Positions 1-27,674 of a DNA stretch of 27,674 nucleotides are shown piece after piece (position 1 is the stretch's first letter; each line of letters opens with the position of its first letter). The position numbers were made by a program, and so were the translations under genes. The stretch is taken from IMG/VR virus record IMGVR_UViG_3300030380_004098, positions 1-27,674 of that record; one strand, 5' to 3'. The stretch comes from a virus. Below the pieces are notes generated by a model. It saw nothing but the letters and a program-made list of their open reading frames with translations. It had not been told where the DNA came from and did no database searches.

Positions 1-225
1 AAACTCGGCTACGGGGTGAGTGTTGCAAAGCTCAAGGTCGTCTACCAACGCGGGGTTGGTGCTTATCAAACGTCACACAGCCCCCGGGTAACGAGCCAAC
101 AGCAATGGGCGATGGCCCGGGTGAACGCATTTATGTACCTTGTCAAGAACGGTCGGCCTGAGAATGCCAAGTACGTTGGAGACAACGACCTGCTTCCCAA
201 AGGGCACCCCAAAAGCATCAAGTGA
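1..225 (+). CDS. DUF5824-like phage protein, C-terminal part (5' truncated by window edge)
   Basis: The frame is open from base 1, so the start lies outside the window. The 74 visible residues read KLGYGVSVAKLKVVYQRGVG at the start and carry a C-terminal LLPKGHPKS motif. The combination of a VVYxRGVGAxxTSHSP segment, SQQQWAMARVNAF and DxDLLPKGHP is what I associate with a small phage domain annotated DUF5824, whose function is unknown. The same segment appears at the extreme right end of the window (27568-27674) in the same reading frame with 29 of 35 residues identical. If the molecule is circular, this fragment is the C-terminus of the gene that starts at 27052. The stop codon overlaps the GTG start of the downstream ParB-methyltransferase gene (GTGA), indicating translational coupling. 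Function is not inferred. Confidence 0.75.
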   Translation, partial: KLGYGVSVAKLKVVYQRGVGAYQTSHSPRVTSQQQWAMARVNAFMYLVKNGRPENAKYVGDNDLLPKGHPKSIK

Positions 226-1355
226 AAGTATCCATTCATGACCTCCGGGAGAATCCGGAGAACCCCCGCAGCATCTCCGGGGAGAAATTTGAGAAGCTGG
301 TCAACTCCATCCGGCAGTTCCCCGAGATGATGGAGGCCCGGCCCATTGTGGTCGACGAGAATAACGTCATCCTCGGGGGGAACATGAGGTTCAAGGCAGC
401 CAAGGAAGCCGGCCTCCAAGAGGTGGATGTCTATGTGGCGTCGTGGGATGAAGCCAAAAACCCGGAGTTCATCATCAAGGACAACGTAGGCTTCGGCGAA
501 TGGGATTGGGATATGCTCGCCAACGAGTGGGATGCAGTCCTCTTGGATGATTGGGGTCTTGACGTATGGCAAGAGGAAGAAGAGAAGGAGGGGCTCACCG
601 ATGCGGACGAGGTTCCGGAGGTGCCTGCCGACCCTATCACCCAGCTCGGCGACTTGTGGATTCTTGGAGAGCACCGCCTGCTCTGTGGGGACTCGACCAA
701 GGCGGAGGACGTGGAGCGCCTCATGGACGGAGAGAAGGCGGACATGGTTTACACAGACCCGCCCTACGGCATGGATTTAGACACGGACTATACGAAAATG
801 ACTTCCACCTCGTTGAAGCACAACCGTGTTATTGGCGACGATGTGCAATTTCACGCAAGTTTAGTGCTCTCTTCTTTTGAGTATTGTGACGAGGTATTTT
901 TGTGGGGTGCCGACTACTACGTGGAGACATTAGGTAGAAATTACCCCAATTTGGGGAGCTGGATTGTCTGGGACAAACGAAGCAATGAAGAAAATATAGG
1001 GTTACTTGACAAAGCTTTTGGAAGTGACTTTGAATTGTGTTGGAGTAAAGCAAAGCACAAGCGAGAAATGTGCCGAATTTTGAGACAAACAGGGCATTTT
1101 GAAGCAAGGAGTGAAGACAAGCGTGTACACCCTACACAAAAGCCAGTCAAGTTGGCCGAGTGGTTTTTTGAACGTTGGGGAAAGGGTCGAACAAACATTG
1201 TGGACCTATTTCTAGGCTCAGGCTCCACCCTCATTGCAGCAGAGAAGACAGGGCGCAAATGCTACGGCATGGAGCTTGACCCCAAGTATTGTGATGTCAT
1301 TGTAAAGCGATGGGAGGACTTCACCGGCCAAAAAGCATCCAAAGCAAATGCCTGA
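222..1355 (+). CDS. ParB-like domain fused to DNA (N4/N6) methyltransferase
   Basis: A 377-residue fusion. Residues about 1-75 form a ParB/sulfiredoxin-type N-terminal domain (NPENPRSISGEKFEKLVNSI, GGNMRF at 52-57). It is followed by a beta-class amino-methyltransferase with catalytic motif IV DPPYG at 179-183, a HPTQKP element, and the SAM-binding motif FLGSGST at 330-336. Motif IV before motif I is the order of beta-class N6-adenine or N4-cytosine enzymes. Such fusions are common in phages and probably protect phage DNA from host restriction or act as orphan epigenetic regulators; the target site cannot be read from sequence. The GTG start overlaps the upstream stop (GTGA). Bases about 790-1200, which encode the central, probably target-recognition part, are much AT-richer than both flanks (about 41% GC at 841-1080), suggesting replacement of that segment by recombination. 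Confidence 0.9.
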   Translation: MKVSIHDLRENPENPRSISGEKFEKLVNSIRQFPEMMEARPIVVDENNVILGGNMRFKAAKEAGLQEVDVYVASWDEAKNPEFIIKDNVGFGEWDWDMLANEWDAVLLDDWGLDVWQEEEEKEGLTDADEVPEVPADPITQLGDLWILGEHRLLCGDSTKAEDVERLMDGEKADMVYTDPPYGMDLDTDYTKMTSTSLKHNRVIGDDVQFHASLVLSSFEYCDEVFLWGADYYVETLGRNYPNLGSWIVWDKRSNEENIGLLDKAFGSDFELCWSKAKHKREMCRILRQTGHFEARSEDKRVHPTQKPVKLAEWFFERWGKGRTNIVDLFLGSGSTLIAAEKTGRKCYGMELDPKYCDVIVKRWEDFTGQKASKANA

Positions 1356-1415
1356 TACGTTCTTTCTTTCAAACCTCAACGGGGGGTGCAGGCATCCCCT
1401 CAGACATTCGACAAG

Positions 1416-1505
1416 ATGAAGAGTAAAGACTTCGCATATGTGGCCACCTTCTTTGCCCTCATGGGGGTGGCTTTTACCTTCGCATGGATCCTCGCAAATG
1501 GCTGA
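1416..1505 (+). CDS. 29-residue single-span membrane peptide
   Basis: A short ORF, MKSKDF followed by a hydrophobic stretch (AYVATFFALMGVAFTFAWIL) and a short tail ANG. This is one predicted transmembrane helix with a basic N-terminus. Its stop codon lies in an 8-nt ATGGCTGA overlap with the start of the next gene, the same junction type seen twice more just downstream, which argues that it is translated. No family is recognised. It could be a small membrane regulator or a superinfection-exclusion-type peptide, but that is only a guess. Confidence 0.5.
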   Translation: MKSKDFAYVATFFALMGVAFTFAWILANG

Positions 1506-1719
1506 CGCGTACAAGGCCATCTTCACTTGCCCGGCATTGAAGGAGCGCAGGGTTTGGTGGGTATCCTCCCGGACGGAAGCCAAGAAGCACCTCTTCGCTC
1601 ACGTCAACAGCAGGAGCAACAGGAAGGCGGCGTACAGGGACAACGAGTGGGACTTCAAGGTTCGGCCCATATTTGCAAGTGGCAGCGACTCCGGCTGCGA
1701 CCACTCAACATTCGAATAG
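1498..1719 (+). CDS. Small hypothetical protein, 73 aa
   Basis: The ATG at 1498 is chosen because it forms an 8-nt ATGGCTGA overlap with the preceding peptide gene. An in-frame GTG farther upstream would overlap that gene heavily. The product is basic and aromatic (RRVWWVSSRTEAKKH near residues 18-32) with cysteines near both ends (TCPALK; GCDHSTFE). No family is recognised. The stop TAG directly abuts the ATG of the next gene. It lies in a run of small genes just before the terminase genes. Confidence 0.6.
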   Translation: MADAYKAIFTCPALKERRVWWVSSRTEAKKHLFAHVNSRSNRKAAYRDNEWDFKVRPIFASGSDSGCDHSTFE

Positions 1720-1860
1720 ATGCCCATCCCCAAGCCCCAGCCCAACGAAAAGCAGGAGGACTTCATGTCCCGTTGCATGGCAGACTACACCATGAGAGCC
1801 GAGTTCCCCGATGAGGTACAGCGCCTCGCCGTGTGCATTCAACAGGTGAAGGATGCCTGA
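1720..1860 (+). CDS. 46-aa free-standing Cys-containing phage domain
   Basis: The protein begins with a Lys/Pro-rich leader (MPIPKPQPNEKQEDF) and contains SRCMADYTMRAEFPD-QRLAVC, with cysteines at residues 19 and 39. This F-x-S-R-C-M ... EFPD..QR.AVC pattern is one I know as a short conserved segment that recurs in phage head-maturation protease and related structural proteins, where it is usually fused to larger domains. Here it stands alone. It starts immediately after the upstream TAG, and its TGA overlaps the next ATG by 8 nt (ATGCCTGA). Function unknown; family recall is from memory. Confidence 0.6.
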   Translation: MPIPKPQPNEKQEDFMSRCMADYTMRAEFPDEVQRLAVCIQQVKDA

Positions 1861-2074
1861 AGAGCTCACGGTGAATCCGCAGGCGTACGACATCCCCACT
1901 CAGGGGAATCCGCTCACACGTTGGAGAATGACGAGGGAAGCCCTCCACTATCACCTCGAGATGGCTGGGAAAAACATCGCCCATATCAGACCCCCAAAGG
2001 GAGAGATGCGCCGGATTGCCGACAACTTCCCCGACGGGCTGATGAGATTTGAAGTTTACTACACCAATGGCTGA
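1853..2074 (+). CDS. Hypothetical protein, 73 aa
   Basis: The ATG overlaps the previous stop in ATGCCTGA, and the gene's own stop overlaps the small terminase start in ATGGCTGA, so it is embedded in a coupled gene chain. The protein (NPLTRWRMTREALHYHLEMA, then PPKGEMRRIADNFPDGLMRF) is soluble and mixed alpha/beta in appearance, without a recognisable motif. No family is recognised. Position directly before the terminase subunit suggests a packaging or DNA-handling accessory role, but nothing in the sequence proves it. Confidence 0.65.
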   Translation: MPEELTVNPQAYDIPTQGNPLTRWRMTREALHYHLEMAGKNIAHIRPPKGEMRRIADNFPDGLMRFEVYYTNG

Positions 2075-2417
2075 CAGCATCGGACATACCAAAAAGGCGT
2101 TGGTCCAAGCCCTGGAGAAATCGCTCGGGGTGGTCTCGACCGCGTGCAAGGCTGCGGGCATCTCAAGGGACACCCATTACCGATGGCTCAAAGAAGACCC
2201 GGACTACAAGGCGCAGGTCGAGGAGCTGTCCGAGGTGGCCGTGGACTTCGCCGAGTCCCATCTCCACAAGCTCATCAAGGACGGCAACCCAGCCGCGACC
2301 ATCTTCTTCCTCAAGACCAAGGGCAAGGGCCGGGGGTATGTGGAGCGTCAGGAGATCACCGTGGCAGAGAAGAGGCCCCTTTCGTGGTTCACCGATGACA
2401 ATGCGGATGTTTCCTAA
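2067..2417 (+). CDS. terS: Terminase small subunit
   Basis: A 116-residue protein. The N-terminal helix-turn-helix (ALVQALEKSLGVVSTACKAA, then GISRDTHYRWLKEDPDY) is followed by a helical region with AESHLHKLIKDGNPAATIFF and a conserved-looking LKTKGKGRGYVER. This layout is that of small terminase subunits (phBC6A51-like), which recognise the packaging site and recruit the large subunit. The ATG at 2067 is preferred over an in-frame TTG at 2049 because it makes the ATGGCTGA overlap used at neighbouring junctions. Large terminase lies one gene downstream, separated only by a Mom-like gene. Confidence 0.8.
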   Translation: MADSIGHTKKALVQALEKSLGVVSTACKAAGISRDTHYRWLKEDPDYKAQVEELSEVAVDFAESHLHKLIKDGNPAATIFFLKTKGKGRGYVERQEITVAEKRPLSWFTDDNADVS

Positions 2418-2426
2418 TATTGGACC

Positions 2427-3098
2427 GTGCAGTCCTACAGCGTCCACCCCATAGCGTCCGAGCAATGCAAGCCGTGGTTATTGGGGAGGCATTACGCCCG
2501 GCGGATGTGTCCTATATCCTACGCCTTCGGATTGTATGATGGTGTTCAGCTTGTGGGGGTCTGCACGTTTGGAGTTCCCGCCTCTGCCCCTTTGCGAAAT
2601 AGCATCTGCGGACAAGACGAGATGTCCTATGTTCACGAGCTAAACAGGTTGGTTGTAGACAAGCAACCCCGCAACGTATTGAGCTGGTTCGTGGCTGAAT
2701 GTCTACGCCGTCTGCCGCCCATGATTGTCGTGAGCTTTGCCGACACCGAGCAAGGTCACCACGGGTATATCTACCAAGCCACGAACTGGATATATACCGG
2801 ACTTTCTGCCAAGCGTACCGATTGGAAAGTCAAGGGCAAGGAGCACCTGCACGGCGTGACGGTGGCGGATGAATTCCGGGGTCAACAGAACCGTGGCCAG
2901 CTTATGCGGGAGAAGTACGGAGACGACTTCTATCTCGAAGACCGTCCTCGCAAGCATCGGTACGTTTACCTCATCGGATCCAAGACCCAGCGCAAGCGTT
3001 GGCGCAAGGCGTTGAAGTATGGTGAGGAGCCGTATCCCAAGGGGGACAACTCCCGATATACTGAGGCCCCGATATACTCACAGGCCCAGCTATTTTGA
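2427..3098 (+). CDS. mom: Mom-like DNA adenine modification protein
   Basis: A 223-residue protein resembling phage Mu Mom, a GNAT-fold enzyme that converts adenine in DNA to N6-(methylcarbamoyl)adenine and thereby blocks many restriction enzymes. Visible hallmarks are GRHYARRMCPISYAFGLYDG at 20-39, a VGVCTFGVPAS strand, ELNRLVVD at 71-78, SFADT at 103-107, and GYIYQATNW at 113-121, followed by a Lys/Arg-rich C-terminus likely to contact DNA. The GTG start at 2427 follows the small terminase stop after a 9-nt gap. The TGA stop overlaps the TTG start of the large terminase, so Mom is made from the packaging operon, unlike Mu, where mom is a separate late gene. I see no Com-like zinc-finger activator beside it. 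Family recall is confident; chemistry and target motif here are inferred. Confidence 0.8.
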   Translation: MQSYSVHPIASEQCKPWLLGRHYARRMCPISYAFGLYDGVQLVGVCTFGVPASAPLRNSICGQDEMSYVHELNRLVVDKQPRNVLSWFVAECLRRLPPMIVVSFADTEQGHHGYIYQATNWIYTGLSAKRTDWKVKGKEHLHGVTVADEFRGQQNRGQLMREKYGDDFYLEDRPRKHRYVYLIGSKTQRKRWRKALKYGEEPYPKGDNSRYTEAPIYSQAQLF

Positions 3099-10873: not shown

Positions 10874-12704
10874 AGGACTCGGCGAGGCCGCCAATCAGTT
10901 GGCCAACTTTACCGACGAACTTAATGCCGCCCGAGAAGACGGGGCCAGCGTGTCCGGGGCTCTGGACATGGCCACCGGTGGGGCCGTGTCCGGATTTAAG
11001 AAGGCGGCCCAGGGGACCAAGGCTTTTGTCACCGGGCTGAAGCTGACCCGAGCCGCGATCATTGCCACCGGCATTGGGGCGCTTGTGGTTGGGGTCACGG
11101 CACTGGTCGGAGCCTTCACGAAGACCCGCCGCGGGGCACGAATGCTCAAGACCATCATGGCCGGACTGGGTGCGGTGGTGGAGCAACTTACCGCACGCTT
11201 CCAAGCCGTTGGCGGTTTCATTGTGGACCTGTTCAGCAAGGGCCCACAGGCCGCCGTCAAGCAGTACCGCGAAACCCTCGACGAGTTGCCCGGCTCTCTT
11301 CAGGAGGCCGTCAACAAGGCGATGGAATTGGAGCGGGCCACCCAAGCCCTGACCGACTCCCAACGGGCGCTAACCGTTCAACGTGCCAAGGATCGCGCTG
11401 AAATCAAGGAGCTCAACATGGTGGCGGAGGACACGACCCGCACCTTAGAGGAGCGCGAGGCCGCCGCACAGAAAGCCATCGACATTGAGAAAGGGCTCAT
11501 GGCGGAACGGGAACGCATCGCCGCCGAGGAATTGCGCATCGCCCAAGAGAAGGCCGCAATGAGCGACAGCTCCGATGAGGACCTGCAACGCTTGGCCGAC
11601 CTTGAGGCCAACCTCATCAACATCCGCACTGAGTCGGTAGAGCTTCAGACCACGCTTAACAACAAGCTCAACACCATCCGCAACGAAGCGGCACGCAAGG
11701 CAGAGGAAGAAGCCCAGCGCATCGCAGATGCTGCCGCCGCGAAAAAGAAGGCAGAACGAGAGGCGGCCGATGCCATCATTCAAGCCCAGCAAGAGGTGGT
11801 GGACGCTCTCGACCAGCGCGAACGGGCCAGTCTTTCCGAAATGGAACGGGAGGTCCTTGCCATCGAAGACTTCTATAACGCACAGCTCGACAAGGCCGGA
11901 GAGAACGCCGAGCTCATCGCCGAGTTGGAGGCCCGCCGAGATGCGGAGTTGGAGGCGCTCTTCGCCAAGCACGCCGATGTGTCCCTTCAGCAACGCGAAC
12001 AGCTCAACAGCGACTTGGAGGCGCGTCGCATGACCGAGCGAGAGAAGGAGATGGCAGACCTGGACGCCACCTTTATGGCCTTGATGGACGCCGCAGGAAC
12101 AAACCACGAAATGCGCCTGTCGGTCCTTGACCAATACGCCAACGAGGTCGACGCATTGAATGACAAGTACCGGCAAGAAGACTTGGCAAAGGAGCGGGCG
12201 GCAGCGTTAGCCAAGAAAGAGATTCAAGTCCAGACGGCCACGCAGACCCTCAGCATTTTGGCGAACCTCAACGAAGCCTTTAGCCGAGGGGGTACTGCTG
12301 AGAACAAGAAAGCATTCGAAAGAAACAAGGCCATCAGCATCGCTGAGACCTTGGTGTCCACCTACATGGCCGCGCAGAAGGCGTTTACCTCACAGCTCAC
12401 CGCAACGCCGGACTCTCCCATTCGTGCGGCTTTGGCTGCCGCCGCCGCAACCGCTTCCGGATTGGCACGGGTGGCCGCCATCAAGAGAACCCAGTTCAAC
12501 ACCCCTGGAGGAACAGACCCCGGCGATGGTGGCGGTGGTGGCGATCTTGGCGGTGGCACCCAATCCATTGGGGTGGACGTGGGCACCCTCGTTCCGAGAG
12601 CCGGACAACCCACACCGGAACCCGTTCGGGCATATGTAGTCTCGAACGAGATTAGCAACAAACAAGCCCTCGACAGAGAGCTGCAAATTCAGACAACGCT
12701 ATGA
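10839..12704 (+). CDS. Tail tape measure protein
   Basis: 621 residues. The N-terminal segment contains a hydrophobic membrane-spanning-like stretch at about 71-93 (RAAIIATGIGALVVGVTALV). It is followed by a long Ala/Glu/Lys/Arg-rich coiled-coil region (about 150-480) and a Gly-rich C-terminal linker. This is the standard make-up of a tape measure protein, which sets tail length and enters the host envelope with the DNA. The protein is short for the family, implying a short tail. It overlaps the following protease gene by 4 nt (ATGA). Confidence 0.85.
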   Translation: MAQDYEINVKVKGLGEAANQLANFTDELNAAREDGASVSGALDMATGGAVSGFKKAAQGTKAFVTGLKLTRAAIIATGIGALVVGVTALVGAFTKTRRGARMLKTIMAGLGAVVEQLTARFQAVGGFIVDLFSKGPQAAVKQYRETLDELPGSLQEAVNKAMELERATQALTDSQRALTVQRAKDRAEIKELNMVAEDTTRTLEEREAAAQKAIDIEKGLMAERERIAAEELRIAQEKAAMSDSSDEDLQRLADLEANLINIRTESVELQTTLNNKLNTIRNEAARKAEEEAQRIADAAAAKKKAEREAADAIIQAQQEVVDALDQRERASLSEMEREVLAIEDFYNAQLDKAGENAELIAELEARRDAELEALFAKHADVSLQQREQLNSDLEARRMTEREKEMADLDATFMALMDAAGTNHEMRLSVLDQYANEVDALNDKYRQEDLAKERAAALAKKEIQVQTATQTLSILANLNEAFSRGGTAENKKAFERNKAISIAETLVSTYMAAQKAFTSQLTATPDSPIRAALAAAAATASGLARVAAIKRTQFNTPGGTDPGDGGGGGDLGGGTQSIGVDVGTLVPRAGQPTPEPVRAYVVSNEISNKQALDRELQIQTTL

Positions 12705-13447
12705 GAACCGTGGAGCTTTTGATTGACGAGGAACAGGAGGACTTCGGCGTGGAGGCCATCTCCTTGGTCAAGTTTCCCGCCATCGAGGAGAACTTCGTGT
12801 ACTTCAACAAGGAGCAGAAATTGACCCTCGCCCGTATCGACGAGGACCGGCAGATGCTCATCGGCCCGGCCTTGATTCCGGACAAGATGATCCCGCGCTA
12901 CGACGAGAAGAGCCAAGAGGAGTTCGAGGTGTACTTCTCCAAGGACACCGTGGCCAAGGCTGCCGAGCTGTTCATGCAACAGAAGCGGAACGATGAGTAC
13001 ACCGTGGAGCACCGCTCCAAGGTGGACGGACTCTCCATCTTTGAGTCTTGGATCGTGGCCGACAAGGACAAAGACAAGGCCGCCGTCTACGGGTTCAATG
13101 TCCCGGTCGGTACTTGGATGGTATCGGTGAAGGTCCACAATTCCGACGTCTGGATGGACGTCAAAGACAAGAAGTATCGGGGTTTCAGCATCGAGGGCTA
13201 CTTCATCGACAAGCTCATCAAGATGGAGGACGTCACGGTGGAGACCATCGCCGAAGCCCTGCGGGAGGTGTTGGAGCCGGCTGCATACCTCGACGGCAAG
13301 CCGCTCTTCGCAACCGCACTGGAGGCCAATCTCATGGCCGAGGCTTTGGGCTGTGAGGGACACCACGAGCACACGATTAACGACCGGGTTATGTACATGC
13401 CGTGCAAGACGCACGAAGCCCTTGACCCCCTACTTGCCAACGAATAA
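12701..13447 (+). CDS. XkdF-like prohead protease
   Basis: 248 residues. ISLVKFPAIEENFVYFNKEQ near the N-terminus, GPALIPDKMIPRYD, and the central H-R-S / S-W-I-V and GTWMVSVKV..VW..V elements (about 105-155), followed by RGFSIEGYF, are the pattern of XkdF-type phage serine proteases that cleave the scaffold and capsid during head maturation. The C-terminus has an extra Cys/His segment (ALGCEGHHEHTINDRVMYMP then CKTHEAL) that recurs in phage head proteins and may bind metal. The scaffold and capsid genes follow directly, which fits the function. The ATGA overlap with the tape measure couples the tail and head modules. Confidence 0.75.
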   Translation: MRTVELLIDEEQEDFGVEAISLVKFPAIEENFVYFNKEQKLTLARIDEDRQMLIGPALIPDKMIPRYDEKSQEEFEVYFSKDTVAKAAELFMQQKRNDEYTVEHRSKVDGLSIFESWIVADKDKDKAAVYGFNVPVGTWMVSVKVHNSDVWMDVKDKKYRGFSIEGYFIDKLIKMEDVTVETIAEALREVLEPAAYLDGKPLFATALEANLMAEALGCEGHHEHTINDRVMYMPCKTHEALDPLLANE

Positions 13448-18616: not shown

Positions 18617-19177
18617 ATGGCAAACAGCAAAATAACAGACCTTACCGAGTTGACTTCCGCCGCCAACGACGACGTGTTGGTCATTGTGGACGACTCGGCT
18701 TCCGAGACCAAGAAGATTACGGTCGCTAATCTGTCCAGCGGAATCAGCAACCCTAACGAGCTGGATGGTCAGGTGTTGGAGGTCATTACCCGGGATACGG
18801 CCTACACAAACGGGTCCTATGAGGGGCACGTCATGAAGTACCGCACGGATACCCTGGTGGAGTTGAAGTGGTACATTCTGGGCTCCCTTGGTTGGACTGC
18901 CACTGACGCGGACGAAGAGCCCAAGACCAAGGGCCTTTTGGGTTTGGCTTTGGGAACCAGTAGCGGCACCAACGGCCTACTGATTCGCGGAGTTCATCAA
19001 TCGACTTTGTGGTCCAGCTTTACCGTGGGGCAGACCCTCTACCTCAGCACCACCGAGGGCACAATCACGGCCACCGCGCCGACGGCAGCCGGCGACTTCG
19101 TGCGGGTCATTGGCTACGCGATGGGTAGCAACAACATCTACATCGACCCAGCGCAGGACTACATCGAGCTCAGCTAA
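18617..19177 (+). CDS. Tail fibre/virion appendage protein, 186 aa
   Basis: Begins MANSKITDLTELTSAANDDV followed by LVIVDDSASETKKITVANL. This N-terminal 'KI.DL.ELT....DD.L.IVDD......KKIT..NL' motif is very common at the N-termini of phage fibre and appendage proteins, where it attaches to the virion. The rest is beta-rich (GLALGTSSGTNGLLIRGVHQ, ending DPAQDYIELS). It overlaps the LamG-like gene by one base, so the two may form one receptor-binding complex. Confidence 0.65.
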   Translation: MANSKITDLTELTSAANDDVLVIVDDSASETKKITVANLSSGISNPNELDGQVLEVITRDTAYTNGSYEGHVMKYRTDTLVELKWYILGSLGWTATDADEEPKTKGLLGLALGTSSGTNGLLIRGVHQSTLWSSFTVGQTLYLSTTEGTITATAPTAAGDFVRVIGYAMGSNNIYIDPAQDYIELS

Positions 19178-25726: not shown

Positions 25727-25857
25727 CCTCCGGACTCCTCGCGGCCATCGCGGTCCTGAGCTTCGCACAGCTTGGCATCGAATACTTCCAAGAGAACCAG
25801 GTCCGTTTGTTCGGGCTCGTTATCCTCCTGCTTGCGTGCCTGGGATTGGTCGGGTGA
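25723..25857 (+). CDS. 44-aa two-span membrane protein
   Basis: MTSGLLAAIAVLSFAQLGIE is one hydrophobic span, and VRLFGLVILLLACLGLVG a second, joined by a short polar loop (YFQENQ). It overlaps both the methyltransferase stop (ATGA) and the NinG start (GTGA), so it is coupled. An early membrane protein could act in superinfection exclusion or host membrane remodelling, but there is no direct evidence. Confidence 0.55.
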   Translation: MTSGLLAAIAVLSFAQLGIEYFQENQVRLFGLVILLLACLGLVG

Positions 25858-26252
25858 ATCGGAAGAAGCTCATCGCCAAGCTCGACCGGGTGTTCTCTCA
25901 GTGGGTCCGGGCTAAGGATGCCGACCACCGCGGGTATGTGGAATGCTACACCTGCGGAGCAGTCAACCATTGGAAGCGCATGGACGCCGGCCACTTCCAA
26001 TCGCGGGGCAAGTTCTCGACTCGGTGGATGTGCGACCCCGAACAGGGGTTGGTCAATGTGGCCCCCCAGTGTAAGAGGTGCAACGGATTCCGGTCCGGTG
26101 AGCAATTCAAGTTCGCCCGCCGGTTGGACGCGGAGTATGGGGAGGGCACCGCGGAGAAGATTGAGCAGATGTCTAACCAAACGAGGAAGTACAGCTCGGA
26201 AGAGCTTGAGGCGCTGATTGAAGTCTACAACCGTCGAGTCCGCAAGCTGTGA
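25854..26252 (+). CDS. ninG: NinG/Rap-like recombination protein
   Basis: 132 residues from the GTG at 25854. KLIAKLDRVFSQWVRAKDAD, GYVECYTCG with Cys31/Cys34, HWKRMDAGHFQSRG (DAGHF at 44-48), and a second Cys pair in QCKRCNGF (Cys73/Cys76) are the hallmarks of lambda NinG (Rap), a structure-specific endonuclease that resolves D-loops and Holliday junctions. The zinc pair and HNH-like DAGHF are intact, so the protein is probably active. Its early-operon place mirrors lambda. Confidence 0.85.
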   Translation: MNRKKLIAKLDRVFSQWVRAKDADHRGYVECYTCGAVNHWKRMDAGHFQSRGKFSTRWMCDPEQGLVNVAPQCKRCNGFRSGEQFKFARRLDAEYGEGTAEKIEQMSNQTRKYSSEELEALIEVYNRRVRKL

Positions 26253-26785
26253 CCCTCTCCCGCTACCTCGAAAAGAACTACGCCGACCTTGAGCAGGCCG
26301 CGTACCGCATCGCCGGAAGGGATGGCCCCGACCTGCTTCACGAGGTAATCCTTCAACTCTACCAAACCAAGGAGGAAACCATCGCCGGGCTCTTGGACAG
26401 GGGGCAGATGAAGTACTGGGTCCTTCGGGTGATGGTCAACAACTACAACTCCAAGACTTCCCGGTACCACTACAAATGGCGGAAGGACATCGAGCGCCGC
26501 CGCAAGTTCTCGCGGCACATCGTGGAGTGGTGGGACGGGGACGGGGTAGCGGCCCACCGGGACGAACTCCTGACCCACATCGAGCAACAGCTCGCCGACC
26601 TCCCTTGGTTCGATGCGGAAGTCTTTGCCATATACTTTGAAGAGGGGCACACCCTGGACTCCTTCGCGGAGGCCACGGGCATCTCTCGCCACACCCTATA
26701 TACCACCATCAGACGTGTCCGAAAACGAATCCAAGGGACTGGGCGACAAGATCGCCAAGCTGACCAAAGCGACGGGAATCAATAA
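26249..26785 (+). CDS. Sigma-70-like protein, candidate late regulator
   Basis: 178 residues, GTG start in a GTGA overlap. The N-terminal half (RYLEKNYADLEQAAYRIAGR then PDLLHEVILQLYQ) matches sigma-70 region 2-type helices, the middle is basic (HYKWRKDIERRRKFSRH), and residues about 115-160 (FDAEVFAIYFEEGHTLDSFA, then EATGISRHTLYTTIRRVRKR) are a region 4-like helix-turn-helix. It may bind core RNA polymerase or a late promoter. It lies downstream of ninG, where lambda keeps its late antiterminator Q. The gene overlaps the next by 71 nt. Confidence 0.65.
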   Translation: MTLSRYLEKNYADLEQAAYRIAGRDGPDLLHEVILQLYQTKEETIAGLLDRGQMKYWVLRVMVNNYNSKTSRYHYKWRKDIERRRKFSRHIVEWWDGDGVAAHRDELLTHIEQQLADLPWFDAEVFAIYFEEGHTLDSFAEATGISRHTLYTTIRRVRKRIQGTGRQDRQADQSDGNQ

Positions 26786-27074
26786 GCTGGTCCACGCCGT
26801 CGTCGAGGACTGCGGTTGCGACGACCGGCAGAAGAAACTCAACGCAATGTTCCCCGGGCGCAACGTGGCCATGACCCAAAACGATGCCAACCGCTGGAAA
26901 GGGCTCCAACCCGAAATCGAGCGGGGCAGATTGAACCGCGCCCAGACCCGCATCATGTACGACATCTACAACCGGACCTTCAACGCCGCGGCCAAGCCCT
27001 GCAACTGCACGGGCAAGAACGCGCGTATGGTCGAGAAACTACAACGCGCCTATGAGCTTCGCTGCGAACTTTAA
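26715..27074 (+). CDS. Hypothetical Cys-containing protein, 119 aa
   Basis: The GTG at 26715 gives MSENESKGLGDKIAKLTKAT followed by GINKLVHAVVEDCGCDDRQK. A CGC motif in a 'DCGCDxRQxKLN' pattern and a later PCNCTGKNARMVEKLQ segment suggest a small metal or nucleic-acid-binding fold. The N-terminal GLGDxIxKxTKATGIxKLV pattern is common in Bacteroidota phages just before terminase genes, function unknown. The start is inside the sigma-like gene (71-nt overlap); no better start is visible downstream. Confidence 0.65.
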   Translation: MSENESKGLGDKIAKLTKATGINKLVHAVVEDCGCDDRQKKLNAMFPGRNVAMTQNDANRWKGLQPEIERGRLNRAQTRIMYDIYNRTFNAAAKPCNCTGKNARMVEKLQRAYELRCEL

Positions 27075-27674
27075 GACATACCGCGCCCCCGAAGGCGTGA
27101 GGAACAATGCCAAGCGCGGCATCGAGCTCAACGAGAAGGTGGGCAACAAGTGCGCCACCCAAACGGGAAAGGTCAGAGCTCAGCAAATCGCCAACGAGTC
27201 GATGTCCCTGGACACGGTAAAGCGGATGTATTCCTACCTCTCCCGGGCGGAGACCTACTACGACCCGAACGACACGAAAGCGTGCGGGACCATCTCGTAC
27301 CTGCTCTGGGGCGGTAAGGCTGGCCTCGCATGGGCTCGGAACATCCTGCGGGAGGAGGGAATGGACCTCGCCGAAATCGGCCCGAAGGGTGGCGTGAAGC
27401 GATCCAAGAAAGCCCCGAAGTCGGACACCCCCAATCCCAACCCCAAGAGAGGCAGCGACAAGAACAAGCCCGGAGCCGCAGCCAGTGAGGGCAAGGTGAA
27501 GGTCCCCGCCTCGGTCGAGAAGACCCTGAAGAAGAAGTCGGACGAATTTAACGAACGCTATAAGGACAAACTCGGGTATGGGGTGACCCTGCCGAAATTG
27601 AGGGTGGTGTATCAGCGGGGGGTGGGTGCCTTCCAGACCTCGCACTCACCGAATGTCACGAGCCAACAGCAATG
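27052..27674 (+). CDS. DUF5824-type phage protein, N-terminal part (3' truncated by window edge)
   Basis: ATG at 27052 overlaps the preceding gene by 23 nt. 207 residues are visible. The N-terminal domain (NNAKRGIELNEKVGNKCATQ, SLDTVKRMYSYLSRAETYYD, then YLLWGGKAGLAWARNIL) is one I know from phage head-associated proteins. A Lys/Pro/Ser-rich linker (about 125-165) follows, and then the DUF5824-like segment (KLGYGVTLPKLRVVYQRGVG) that is repeated in divergent form at the very start of the window. Reading on from base 27674 into base 108 keeps frame (the split TGG codon is restored) and gives a natural C-terminus, supporting circular closure. Function unknown. Confidence 0.7.
   Translation, partial: MSFAANFKTYRAPEGVRNNAKRGIELNEKVGNKCATQTGKVRAQQIANESMSLDTVKRMYSYLSRAETYYDPNDTKACGTISYLLWGGKAGLAWARNILREEGMDLAEIGPKGGVKRSKKAPKSDTPNPNPKRGSDKNKPGAAASEGKVKVPASVEKTLKKKSDEFNERYKDKLGYGVTLPKLRVVYQRGVGAFQTSHSPNVTSQQQ

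Follow-up and report, generated by a model that had tools for sequence, protein, structure and literature searches.

Diverged ends of a tailed-phage contig suggest a foreign chimeric tip on a circularly mapping genome

The window, by which we mean the whole 27,674-base virus record analysed here, begins and ends in homologous, in-frame coding sequence that is nevertheless clearly diverged, which raises the question of whether it holds two genes, two versions of one gene, or one gene with something foreign attached. The alignment of bases 1–107 with bases 27568–27674 is gapless, with 75 of 107 bases and 29 of 35 residues identical; most changes are silent (22 of the 32 mismatches lie at third codon positions), and the final 17 bases of the alignment are identical. 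On each of these counts, our recount agrees with the initial annotation of the record. Retroelement-type diversification of the ends was considered and set aside on account of the third-position bias. There is no exact terminal overlap of more than 3 bases in the window. Elsewhere in the window, the left 107-mer scores at best 47 (plus strand) or 50 (minus strand), and random 107-mers of the window (n = 400) gave non-self matches with a maximum of 60 and a mean of 49.3; set against these scores of 47–60 of 107, the 75 of 107 at the ends is, on sequence grounds, true homology as opposed to chance. The annotation had additionally argued from the exact placement of the two copies at the ends: the non-random homology stands, but the terminal position carries no information of its own, because the overlapping ends of a single circle always align end to end.

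Both ends of the window lie in an open gene, of which the right end holds 207 codons and the left end the last 74; when base 27674 is joined to base 108, the reading frame remains open and encodes 246 amino acids, bearing out the proposal that this join restores a full-length protein. The parts of this gene and its neighbours are as follows:

27052–27674, plus strand: native 5′ part of a stand-alone DUF5824-type gene, comprising 207 codons and 2 further bases (88–94% amino acid identity to L003–L006)
108–225, plus strand: native 3′ portion of this gene, carrying on from 27674 across the circle join
222–1355, plus strand: gene with ParB_N and N6/N4 DNA methyltransferase matches (Pfam), downstream of the DUF5824-type gene and overlapping it by 4 bases
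25836–26252, plus strand: NinG-like gene (PF05766, E 1.1e-13), upstream of the join and likewise upstream of the intact DUF5824-type gene in relatives
26249–26785, plus strand: sigma-70 region 4-like gene (PF08281, below cut-off), upstream of the join, in an order conserved in relatives

With the right-end protein as query, 80 of 548 related viral-contig stretches were fetched, and 76 of the 80 loci have both parts of the window gene at one overlapping place; the remaining four (L070, L073, L077 and L080) carry a short form from which the C-terminal part is absent. In L003–L007, a single continuous gene lies where the window is cut. In L003, a ParB/methyltransferase gene comes next, overlapping it by 4 bases just as it does in the window, and in L004–L007 the NinG-like and sigma-like genes and the following ORFs lie upstream of the intact gene, with a terminase small-subunit-like gene downstream (and the large subunit also, in L004–L006). 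Moreover, the 29,687-base record behind L006 (G001) matches 33 of the 39 window ORFs and preserves their circular order, in permuted form: it starts and ends within the gene corresponding to that at window position 18617, and it crosses the window join within one gene and continues into the window's start. The six window ORFs lacking a match in G001 are those at 222, 1853, 2427, 19177, 20015 and 25079. To judge from gene order, the two ends of the window are, therefore, neighbours in a circular gene map of ~27,567 bp, and the circular genome of about 27.57 kb that had been suggested for this record is supported by both the continuous gene of the relatives and the permuted, colinear G001. The window is otherwise an ordinary tailed-phage genome, in which searches for Rfam families and tRNAs found none.

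The interval that separates the DUF5824 gene from the terminase genes (window 222–3098) is variable in L003–L007, L070, L073, L077 and L080, with ParB/methyltransferase, Mom-like and other genes being gained or missing, such that it resembles a DNA-modification cassette. The short forms of the DUF5824-type gene (L070 1162–1518, L073 2611–2931, L077 1654–1998 and L080 9819–10160) are natural; they keep the N-terminal half, end in EEGVTLYET... and are without the C-terminal domain.

The presence of two homologous partial copies within one contig might be taken to indicate tandem or terminal paralogues, that is, a linear genome fragment with a DUF5824 gene at either end; this had been the annotation's alternative. 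Searching with the C-terminal part gave a single hit in 34 of 38 records and none at all in four, and a single hit in 149 of 153 loci (after dropping the duplicate L087, and with a few loci lying on shared contigs) and none at all in four; two copies were found in none of the 38 records and none of the 153 loci, and the relatives join both flanking gene sets through one gene. Relatives with two complete DUF5824-like copies, which the annotation had proposed to look for, were thus not encountered in this sample, and we rejected paralogues on these copy counts, regarding them as very improbable.

Which of the two ends belongs to this gene is indicated by comparison with the relatives. The right-end 107 bases are identical at 94 of 107 positions to L003 and L053, at 90–91 to L004 and L005, and at only 75 to L083, and bases 108–225 follow suit, with 100 of 118 identical to L053, 97 to L003, 94 to L004 and L005, and 77 to L083; the right end together with bases 108–225 thus forms the native version of the gene. 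A right-end 23-mer had no exact match in any contig. The left tip behaves quite differently, and the features needed to describe it are:

1–107, plus strand: probable foreign (chimeric) tip, a fragment of the DUF5824 domain that forms the C-terminus of a head maturation protease in another phage
91–111, plus strand: putative switch point, a 21-base exact match common to the closed window phage and L083
27658–27674, plus strand: the first 17 of the 21 switch-point bases, with which the contig stops at its native right end
12701–13447, plus strand: the window's own head maturation protease (PHROGs matches), without the DUF5824 extension of the L083 protease

Bases 1–111 are identical at all 111 positions to L083 3009–3119 and 96.4% identical to L084, and the identity with L083 drops from base 112. 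Over bases 1–107, the agreement is 107 of 107 with L083 and 103 of 107 with L084, as against 72–75 of 107 with the stand-alone genes L003, L004, L005 and L053, and just 70% with the window's own right end. In both L083 and L084, the DUF5824 domain forms the C-terminus of the head maturation protease. L083 lies on contig IMGVR_UViG_3300030102_004070 (29,581 bases), which is a different phage: the DUF5824 domain apart, the homologues of window genes found there share only ~25–71% of residues. Close to each end of that record there is also a tape-measure-like match (L161 190–1668 and L162 13606–14580), and the two are mutually diverged. Across loci L003–L162, no window stretch besides 1–111 is at least 95% identical over more than 65 bases. 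The Mom-like gene (2427–3098) was examined as a second chimera and rejected: it shares 99% of residues with L080, yet the DNA identity is ~77–93% per 60-base block and shows no step, as in ordinary conservation.

These comparisons bear directly on the reading favoured by the initial annotation, namely, that the population carries the stand-alone gene in two natural allelic forms, one at each end of the contig. The copies are indeed homologous and in frame, with mostly silent differences, as alleles would be; however, the left copy is a perfect match to the protease fusion, a different gene in a different phage, matches the stand-alone genes no better than given above, and gives way to native sequence directly after the 21-base match common to both phages. 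The allele claim is, therefore, probably wrong, and we attach hardly any likelihood to it.

When the window circle is closed from 27674 to 108, it shares exactly 21 identical bases with L083 at the switch. Between the window phage and L083 there are just four maximal exact matches that reach 21 bases (at window 466, 2292, 16884 and the switch point), and the 21-mer of the switch occurs, among 2.9 million viral contigs (a search that may leave out records of the window's own genome), only in the contigs of L083 and L084. Common assemblers use a minimum k of 21, and so a crossing at a 21-base match would be a natural accident. The right end halts after 17 of the 21 shared bases, four short, and no standard k-mer overlap fits this exactly; a chimeric library molecule would give the same appearance as a crossing made by the assembler.

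Our preferred explanation, to which we assign a probability of roughly 0.87, is that the window represents one tailed-phage genome with a circular map of ~27,567 bp, cut inside its stand-alone DUF5824-type gene, and that bases 1 to ~107, about a read length, would have entered as a chimeric tip from another phage. This might have occurred by either of two routes, a k-mer assembler crossing between phages at the 21-base exact match, or the sequencing of a chimeric library molecule. Because the resulting end overlap is only 70% identical, the contig would not have been recognised as circular. As is characteristic of a chimera, the end piece matches another genome, and the switch falls where the two genomes share a short exact match.

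A natural route to the same sequence would be homologous exchange, whereby part of the population took up an L083-type DUF5824 stretch and the assembler merged both versions at the ends. The domain is homologous in the two phages and occurs in several gene contexts, and the switch lies within the shared 21-base stretch, which natural homologous recombination, too, would favour. The foreign tract, however, is just 107–111 bases long and touches the contig end, the native version sits at the opposite end of the contig, and no comparable tract (at least 94% identity over more than 56 bases) to any of 147 other loci is present in six other stand-alone genes from the group. The position of the tip at a contig end, its read-like length, the native copy at the other end and the lack of any such tract in the six genes together strongly favour an artefact over a natural recombinant, which we regard as improbable. 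A broader conjecture, that DUF5824 is a natural exchange point at which stand-alone and protease-fused copies of unrelated phages are swapped at short identical stretches, and that the window caught both forms, seems to us decidedly improbable.

The chimeric tip on a circular genome would also explain what is odd about the window among its relatives. In a comparison of the ends of 29 other records of at least 22 kb (the nine smaller of the 38 being left out), end-to-end homology was found in 12, of which five overlap exactly (41–136 bases) and seven near-exactly (96–100%), with G031 in the latter group having an additional stretch between two matching blocks. Homology at the termini is absent in 17 of the 29, and closure is thus not visible in most of the group. 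An overlap of ~100 bases is usual among the records that do close; the window is odd solely in its 70% identity, for which the foreign tip would account. Circular phage contigs retain end overlaps from de Bruijn assemblers, as the account of self-circular contigs given with COBRA (PMC10914622) has it; the window, with its ~100-base overlap, and the 12 related records with end homology resemble such contigs, the difference being that the window overlap is 70% identical, as opposed to 96–100%, with one end apparently foreign. Similarly, chimeric contigs arise at conserved regions longer than k according to the PenguiN report (PMC11443906), and joins at conserved stretches exceeding the k-mer are also covered in PMC10914622. 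The window is alike in switching genomes at a short exact match at a contig end, but it would involve different phages as opposed to strains.

The compared records are all classed as having ‘linear’ ends, though several overlap exactly or nearly so. G001 itself has ends that overlap by 98 identical bases, stopping one base short of the very end, and G021 and G036, also classed as linear, likewise have 98-base identical ends; in this set of three the last one or two bases are missing, so that a strict end-repeat test would miss them.

The domain in which the window is cut matches PF19141 (DUF5824) over window 1–225 with 41.1 bits, above the curated gathering score of 25, although this match takes in the foreign bases 1–107; the right end alone reaches 16.9 bits and falls under the cut-off. 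The window gene differs from most carriers of the domain in being stand-alone: among the 153 loci, the domain is stand-alone in 17, in frame with a head maturation protease in 113, in frame with a portal in five, within other long frames in seven, and cut by a contig end in seven. An example of a two-part DUF5824 module in the protease frame is L083 1614–3236, and Roseobacter phage CRP-831 (L217 4473–7397) gives a weak match at the start of an ORF annotated as major capsid protein. The structure predicted for the related L005 protein is of moderate quality (mean pLDDT 74.2, pTM 0.46). Among the predicted structures matched by the N-terminal helical half are prohead proteases, XkdF-like proteins and portals. 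A fold search of the PDB returned nothing at E of 0.001 or better, nor did a profile search against PDB sequences give any match at E of 1 or better; accordingly, we propose no biochemical function for the domain. None of the papers searched names it.

The window thus offers a caution, in that diverged homologous contig ends may mimic alleles or paralogues while one of them is a read-length scrap of a foreign virus. Trimming the tip would allow the record to be handled as a genome with a circular map of ~27,567 bp. Moreover, the DUF5824 domain, being conserved and present in both stand-alone and fused forms across many phage contigs, is a spot where assemblies may cross from one genome to another.
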